Assembly (NCBI GenBank): GCA_032821775.1
Contig: JAVLRN010000001.1
Coordinates: 868,001-932,000, forward strand
Length of the DNA stretch: 64,000 nt
Reading direction: 5' to 3'
Origin: Sanguinoderma infundibulare
Taxonomy: Eukaryota; Basidiomycota; Agaricomycetes; Polyporales; Polyporaceae
Shown here: positions 56,720 through 58,377 of the stretch, in pieces
How the letters are laid out: each line of letters opens with the position of its first letter
Numbering within the stretch: the first letter of the stretch is position 1
Position numbers and translations under genes: made by a program
Notes under the pieces: model-generated
What the model was told of the DNA's origin: nothing
Seen by the model: only the letters and a program-made list of their open reading frames with translations
Database searches by the model: none

Positions 56720-58377
56720 ATGGGTGCTTGCATGTCCTCGGGCAGCTTCGAGGTTACTGACGAGGACAAGAGGCTCCACAAGGAGGCCGAAAGAAGCCTC
56801 AGGGAGGTGCGTCCCACCCTATCTACTTCCTAACCAGTCCATATCCAACATCCTTTCCATCCATCAGGCAAAGTTGAAGATGGCCAAGCAAGTCAAGGTG
56901 CGTTCCCGTCCTAGTCCCTTGCTCCCGTCTCCCGTCTCAGCCCGTGCAAGGTTCTCCTCCTCGGCTCCGGAGACTCGGGCAAATCAACCATCCTCAAGCA
57001 GATGCGTCTCATCCATCGCGTCCCTTTCTCTTCTCAAGAGATCGAGTCTTACCGCCAACTCATCTTCAACAACCTTACCCATGGCCTCAAGAACGTCACC
57101 GACGCCATGGAGGACATGGAGCTCGAAGTCTTGCCCGAGAACCGCGACCTGGTCCGCATCGTTGAGGACGCGTCCGACATCAAGGATGGCCAGCCCTATC
57201 CCATCGAGTTCCTCAGCGTCCTCAAGCGGCTATGGGACGATCCTCAAGTTCAGATCGCATATGGCCGCGGTAACGAGGCCGCGCTGCCAGAAAAGTCAGT
57301 CTTCCCCTCATATGCCGCCTTGACTGTGCTCATCCGTCTGCATCCCCAGTCTGATCTACTACTTCGCGCATTTGGACCGGTTATTCGATCCCTCATACGT
57401 ACCCAACGAGCAGGACATCGTCCACACTCGTGCACGGACAATCGGCATCACGGAGACCGTCTTCACCCTTCGCGACCACGACATGCTCATGGTCGACGTC
57501 GGTGGTCAGAAGAGCGAGCGACGGAAGTGGATTCATTGTTTCCAGGATGTGACCAGCATTTTGTTCCTCGTGAGCTTGAGCGGCTACGATCAGTGTCTCG
57601 TCGAAGACAAGGATGCAGTATGTCACTCCATTCGCGTTCTCTCTCACTCCCAGACATGATTGATTGCATCCATGGCACTAGAACCAAATGCAAGATGCGA
57701 TGACCATATGGGACTCGATATGTCACTCGCAGTGGTTCAAACAGACATCAATCGTGAGTCGTACGCGTCTTCACCGAATATGTGCTCCATCTAATCGGCC
57801 GCGTCCAGATATTGTTCTTGAACAAGAACGACCTGTTCGAGAAGAAGGTTCGCAATTCAAGCATCAAGAACTTCTTCCCGGTAAGTGTAGCGGAATCGTT
57901 TTCTTTGCATCCGCCCTGATCGCCGTTTCCAGGATTTTGAGGGCGAGGTTGGTGAAGCCAAGGCAGGACGGGAGTACTTCAAGAAGCGATTCGCAAGGCT
58001 GGCGCAGAAGGCCAACGCGAAAGAGAGGGAGATCTACATCCAGTGCGTCATCGTTCCTTCGCTGTTAAGGACGTGTCACGTCGCGGATCCTGCTGATTGT
58101 ATGGCTTGAAGTGTGACTACTGCAACGGATACAGCCATGCTTCGAGTAGTCATGGCTGCTGTGGAAGGTGCGTCCTAGTGTTTTACTGTGCCGAGCGTCG
58201 CTGACTGAGAATCTTTCCCAGAGTGAGTGTTTCCTTCTTTTTACCATCCCCCATCGCCTTCGTGTTTCTGTCCCGTTTTGGATCCTCTATTTTCGACAGC
58301 AATGGTGCGCTTACGGTTGCGCCGTCTCCCTCAGCATCATCCTCCGACAGAGCCTTGAAACGGCTGCTCTGATATGA
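56720..58377 (+). CDS. Heterotrimeric G protein alpha subunit, divergent class
   Basis: Exons 56720-56806, 56868-56897, 56951-57294, 57350-57617, 57682-57753, 57809-57880, 57933-58042, 58112-58167, 58222 (one base) and 58335-58377 give 360 residues, the normal length. MGAC offers N-myristoylation and palmitoylation. G1 is GSGDSGKST (Asp where most have Glu), switch I has [11 protein letters not shown]3 is [13 protein letters not shown]4 NKND, G5 TTATDT. The end, [15 protein letters not shown], aligns without gaps to the helix alpha-5 of other G-alphas only if a single A is spliced in as an exon. There is no Cys at position -4, so it is not a pertussis-toxin-type Gi. It relays receptor signals at the membrane; the receptor is unknown. 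Confidence 0.9.

Follow-up and report, generated by a model that had tools for sequence, protein, structure and literature searches.

The window analysed here is a 64,000-nt stretch of the Sanguinoderma infundibulare genome, whose gene content and short introns suggest a mushroom-forming fungus, and it carries a G-alpha gene whose introns are, in order, 61, 53, 55, 64, 55, 52, 69, 54, and 112 nt long, all of them GT-AG. The product has a full-length G-alpha domain (Pfam PF00503, 387.9 bits, profile positions 2-333 of 333), and the PDB matches printed for it were G-alpha chains or chimeras, with two of the printed chains aligning without a gap over the junction that concerns us. The gene and the parts of its 3' end were as follows:

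56720 to 58377, forward strand: G-alpha gene, 10 exons and 9 GT-AG introns, 360 amino acids, spliced frame free of stops
58112 to 58167, forward strand: exon 8, 56 nt, 3' end GTG GAA G, phase 1
58168 to 58221, forward strand: intron 8, 54 nt, GTGCGT...CCCAG, 3' end letters TTTCCCAG
58222 to 58222, forward strand: predicted one-nucleotide exon A, middle base of GAC, the Asp347 codon
58223 to 58334, forward strand: intron 9, 112 nt, donor GTGAGT, 3' end CCCTCAG
58335 to 58377, forward strand: final exon, C ATC ATC ... ATA TGA, containing the end of the alpha5 helix and, at 58375-58377, the stop codon

The A at 58222 stands directly between an AG and a GT with a complete intron on either side, which is the layout of a single-nucleotide exon, and the letters opening the last exon after 58334 are CATCATCC. 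The initial annotation, which had proposed such an exon, had read the junction as GTG GAA G, GTGCGT, a 54-nt intron, A58222, GTGAGT, and CCCTCAG, and every one of these elements was confirmed.

When A58222 is included, the reading frame closes without a gap and stops at 58375, but when it is skipped the frame shifts, as had been claimed, and the stop moves to 58370. Retention of intron 8 gives VEGAS* and retention of intron 9 gives VEE*. Omission of the A thus breaks the frame, and its inclusion restores the conserved protein without a gap. We enumerated GT/GC-AG splice pairs from 58150 to 58345 with introns of at least 40 nt, and 20 one-intron and 46 two-intron combinations reached the C-terminus. 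Only two of them were gapless, one with the A58222 exon (Asp) and one with a T58228 exon (Val), and inclusion of A58222 was the only choice among the enumerated splice-site pairs that was gapless and kept the Asp. The T58228 one-base exon (VEVIILR) was rejected because the Asp is lost and its donor GTTTCC scored below all 121 donors of the reference set described below. A 5-nt pseudo-exon CAATG at 58300-58304 has two fair sites, but it leaves a 30-nt intron and breaks the frame, so it was rejected too.

The helix had been said to match G-alpha residue for residue; the match is gapless and the acidic residue is present, yet some positions differ (AVEDIILRQSL in this gene, AVTDIIIKENL in the best PDB match). 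Among the 18 loci aligned, the split-codon column was D or E in all 13 paralogue models that reach the C-terminus, assuming no gap, and the two paralogues closest by score (L009 and L010) have the same codon uninterrupted. The A-containing product gained 3.5 Pfam bits over the skip product and 3.3 over the product of a weak donor discussed below, a gain that is small because the profile ends two positions past the split codon.

Site strength was compared with a reference set of 121 introns between 45 and 110 nt in length, of which 15 paralogue loci supplied 114 and the G-alpha gene 7. The aligner that yielded these introns itself favours consensus sites, and for this reason the following percentiles are not fully independent: the donor of intron 8 (58168, GTGCGT) was at the 99th percentile, at or above 120 of the 121 reference donors, and its acceptor (58221) at the 36th, while the donor of intron 9 (58223, GTGAGT) was at the 42nd and its acceptor (58334) at the 47th. 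Branch-point-like sites lie 17 nt before the end of intron 8 (CTGAC, A at 58204) and 21 nt before the end of intron 9 (CTTAC, A at 58313), compared with a reference median of 18 nt. The arrangement goes beyond chance: dinucleotide shuffling of the intron core produced YAG-A-GTRNGT, flanked on both sides by 40 nt or more, in 37 of 20,000 trials (about 0.2%), and 119 of 20,000 had the pattern when any middle base was allowed; YAG-N-GTRNGT was present in 1 of 52 other introns of at least 110 nt of G-alpha loci.

To see whether homologues recover the exon we used 16 queries, a PDB-derived Gt/Gi chimera and 15 paralogues from the same genome, and 14 were informative, as two end before the helix. 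A purpose-written splice-aware aligner returned exactly the exon at 58222 with the C-terminus of the chimera, and 11 of the 14 informative queries recovered it, the chimera being the sole fully independent one because the paralogue models had been built with the window G-alpha protein as guide. The remaining three (L014, L017, and L023) preferred acceptors in the 3' flank, downstream of the stop. The aligner accepts GC donors, hence substitution of T58224 by C was uninformative. We also used a small ab initio gene model whose costs were set by hand and whose training material was paralogue coding sequence plus two ORFs of the window, with the G-alpha gene left out. It recovered all nine G-alpha introns exactly, and its score was 116.1 versus 111.7 with both A58222 sites forbidden, a small margin of 4.4. 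With only acceptor 58221 forbidden, the model chose a 13-nt exon at 58210-58222 (VEESFPDIILR); this candidate is in frame, but it was rejected, its acceptor lying about 5 nt past the branch-point-like CTGAC and scoring below 120 of the 121 reference acceptors. The one-nucleotide exon proposed earlier was therefore borne out as a prediction by the enumeration, the queries, the gene model, and the site scores.

None of the 153 internal exons of the 15 paralogue loci was below 4 nt, and the smallest were 4, 6, 8, 9, and 9 nt. One G-alpha paralogue (L018, G000:C11:759000-762500) has predicted exons of 4 nt (CGGC, 1472-1475) and 6 nt (TGAACG, 1616-1621) with flanking introns of 53-58 nt. On another contig (C19 of G000, 310 kb) at least seven G-alpha-like copies lie about 20-22 kb apart between about 155,700 and 285,740, with the look of a tandem array, and a copy similar to them lies at C1:4525117-4527757. 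A genome search with the junction DNA (58112-58377) detected no other copy, within the sensitivity it had, and scans of viral and prokaryotic contigs returned no relative.

Other readings of the junction were weighed against these results. A single 163-nt intron (58172 to 58334, forward strand) with the weak donor GTCCTA would join the exon end GAAGGTGC to CATCATC (junction letters GAAGGTGCCATCATC) and give VEGAIILRQ, which is in frame and needs only one intron. But this product is one residue longer and has Gly-Ala instead of Asp, so the alpha5 helix would gain a residue and lose the D/E column of the 13 paralogue models, and the donor scored below all 121 reference donors although GTGCGT, at or above 120 of them, lies four bases upstream; we consider this reading very unlikely. 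Skipping of A58222 as the main product, with a 167-nt intron and a G-alpha that has a different tail, seems less likely again. Its donor (58168) and acceptor (58334) are both good, and the shifted frame is open to 58370, where its stop lies within the last exon five bases ahead of the other one, a position that should not trigger nonsense-mediated decay. But the conserved helix end is replaced, and at 167 nt the intron would be two to three times as long as the seven upstream ones (52-69 nt).

Error or decay usually shows itself as a frame problem at a single junction, and one further case described below (L070) does look decayed. However, the seven other introns and the remainder of the 360-codon frame are intact, a fitting base between two typical splice sites has a chance of only about 0.2%, and the same arrangement is predicted in genes of other families, and we find it hardly credible that the gene is a pseudogene, or that a sequencing error deleted exon bases at the junction, with the A a coincidence. 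The least probable reading, to which we give almost no weight, is a [D1,2] stwintron in which an internal intron (58168-58223) splits an external donor G58167|TGAGT. The letters would permit it, since CAGAG holds two acceptors and G plus TGAGT makes GTGAGT, but its product is VEHHPPTEP* and the acceptor at 58223 scored below 120 of the 121 reference acceptors. In a stwintron the internal intron interrupts a splice element and nothing is retained, whereas here both donors are intact without that reading, and because the reading breaks the frame, the A58222 region is not a stwintron. It is also not a recursive ratchet point, where a zero-nucleotide exon leaves AG against GT, as one frame-essential base lies between the AG and the GT.

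We are confident, on the evidence of the genomic sequence, in the prediction that A58222 by itself forms one whole exon of the ten in this G-alpha gene, likely joined in by two successive ordinary intron removals. The prediction is well supported by the reading frame, by homology, by the strength of the splice sites, and by a separately built gene model. The initial annotation had thought that so short an exon would probably rely on recursive or stepwise splicing, but nothing we saw requires special recursive splicing, each flanking intron having its own donor, branch-point-like site, and acceptor, and since both are full canonical introns, two rounds of ordinary splicing are probably enough. 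By intron definition, each short intron would be recognised through its own pair of splice sites, and exon length would then be irrelevant. The AG at 58221 and the GT at 58223 lie so near each other that simultaneous use would not be possible, so the introns would be removed one by one, probably intron 8 first and intron 9 second, because intron 8 has the usual length and the best donor and is transcribed first. After its removal A58222 would be the last base of a 57-nt exon, and the predicted intermediate with intron 9 still in reads GAAGAGTGAGT. The donor context AGA|GTGAGT is unchanged by the removal of intron 8 (same score), so the second reaction would not be weakened and nothing special would be needed. 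As for the origin, the pair may date from the insertion of a new intron at AAG|A, a single base ahead of a donor already there, in a near miss of a stwintron.

The decamer CAGAGTGAGT occurred 109 times in the 48.9-Mb genome, compared with 53 times for the reversed control. We examined 81 of the 108 other CAG|A|GTGAGT sites, and a one-base exon was called ab initio at seven of them (3/41, 3/20, and 1/20 by batch). Three of the seven had homology support:

G000:C3:3822300-3825800, reverse-complement position 1771, minus strand: aspartic protease (L051), one-base A, introns of 83 and 73 nt
G000:C5:2067800-2069200, position 661, minus strand: aspartic protease copy (L070), one-base A (GAC, Asp), introns of 83 and 73 nt
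G000:C7:2328900-2330200, reverse-complement position 639, minus strand: cyclopropane-fatty-acid (CFA) synthase (L091), one-base A (ATT, Ile)

The product of L051 is an aspartic protease (PF00026, 273.6 bits) in which the predicted G|A|C codon (Asp) gives QND-LEYVVPVKIGTP, and this Asp was aligned with Asp in all five printed PDB alignments, two of which read ND-EEYIT. A single 177-nt intron is in frame as an alternative, but it drops DLEYVVP and costs 4.1 Pfam bits, and read-through meets an in-frame TAA at locus position 1758. The aligner left the upstream intron unplaced with penicillopepsin-type queries because these start at the junction, so the support for that intron is the in-frame TAA and the ab initio model. 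In four other protease loci the split codon apparently lies inside one uninterrupted match, judged from match ranges, although one of these matches contains stops. L070 has the same structure as L051, and is 94% identical to it over 348 bases around the junction. Its frame meets a stop further along, a TAA was noted in it, and the alignment needs an implausibly short intron, so it is probably a decayed duplicate with no separate origin.

For the CFA synthase, the aligner with a homologue query flanked the A with introns of 84 and 79 nt; the predicted product reads RKW-I-FPGGFLP with the I encoded by A|TT; the three printed homologues read KYIFPGG or KYIFPNG, and the A restores the IFPGG motif. 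A second homologue query misplaced the upstream intron and kept the one-base exon. The ab initio acceptor was nine bases beyond that of the aligner. PF02353 scored highest, at 106.7 bits, when the one-base exon was joined to the nearer acceptor; a rival with one intron, which adds VSN, reached 100.8, the ab initio alternative lacking the exon 92.8, and the exon joined to the farther acceptor 84.9. The remaining four ab initio calls (L041, L047, L071, and L078) had no Pfam support at the junction and so were not counted as cases, and a one-base G exon at L013 was not counted because it won by only 0.7. In the F-box gene L078 (G000:C6:2168900-2170300, minus strand), a one-base and a 5-nt exon were modelled side by side, with no homology support at the junction. 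Altogether, 4 of the 82 examined CAG|A|GTGAGT sites, in three families (G-alpha, aspartic protease with its decayed copy, and CFA synthase), appear to need the A for a conserved motif.

Over 63 kb of the window and both strands, the ab initio model also produced two 2-nt and two 0-nt exons. The latter (AG|GT, acceptor against donor, ratchet-point-like) lie at about 7772 and 46704 of the window, both on the forward strand, and may be noise. A survey of 217 sites in 99 loci gave ten one-base calls, with margins of 4.1 for the window, 3.7 for L051, 2.7 for L070, and 4.8 for L091, but an antisense one-base call in L051 had a margin of 3.6, as large as those of homology-supported cases. These other tiny exons and the antisense call mean that such margins prove little, and the ab initio model alone is an insufficient test of a one-base exon.

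Predicted one-base exons are probably less rare than thought, because two further gene families in the same genome appear to have one. More tentatively, and with some doubt on our part, they might form a recurrent class in this genome and not an oddity, with perhaps dozens when other bases and splice-site variants are counted, made by new introns landing one base upstream of older donors, and inclusion or skipping of the A in the G-alpha gene could switch its receptor-contacting end between two tails of the same last exon. If the prediction is true, the receptor-contacting helix of a signalling protein hinges on one spliced base that annotation pipelines easily miss, and automatic gene models are likely wrong wherever one-base exons occur. 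Three families found through one ten-letter motif would make one-base exons a countable class, no longer a curiosity, and would provide a natural test of the smallest exon tolerated by intron-definition splicing and of adjacent intron gain.

One-base exons with cDNA or RNA-seq support have been described in plants (PMC4674806, PMC8831610) and Fusarium (PMC12940212), so that published cases are spliced in vivo (PMC4674806, PMC12940212). A one-base exon is also reported for placozoan mitochondrial cox1 (PMC5436844), and in P450 genes of Phanerochaete microexons as short as 6 bp are described (PMC1184071). The best-ranked matches in the open-access full-text literature included no one-base exon from a G-alpha gene or from a nuclear gene of a basidiomycete. 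Arabidopsis APC11 has a constitutive one-base exon, shown by cDNA and reporter constructs, for which the authors proposed intron definition and stepwise removal (PMC4674806). That base is also a frame-essential A and the proposal is the same combination as ours, but APC11 is a plant gene with a 422-nt intronic region (PMC4674806), whereas here the exon lies among short introns of a G-alpha gene and is predicted from genomic sequence. The 1-nt microexons of plant APC11 and VPS55, two clusters in a study that covered ten plant species, are described as conserved, missed by annotation, and found via RNA-seq and modelling (PMC8831610). In [D1,2] stwintrons, two adjacent U2 introns are removed consecutively, which the authors credit to intron definition; there the donor is interrupted by the internal intron and nothing remains of the region in the transcript (PMC12403724), whereas the A58222 region has both donors intact and one base kept. 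A stwintron may arise similarly, but with its donor split. In fungi, Fusarium CYP621A (2026) has a one-base exon G (AGGGT) in the middle of a conserved codon, inferred from a phase mismatch in a 139-nt intronic region of F. graminearum, backed by 18 public RNA reads, and claimed by its authors as the first one-nucleotide exon in a fungal gene (PMC12940212). It resembles A58222 in being fungal, one base long, and the middle of a conserved codon, but it is a G in one P450 family of an ascomycete with RNA behind it (PMC12940212), whereas ours is an A, predicted from sequence in three unrelated families. As the exons of APC11, VPS55, and CYP621A are already published, the kind itself is not new; the unexpected element here is the sign of recurrence within one genome.
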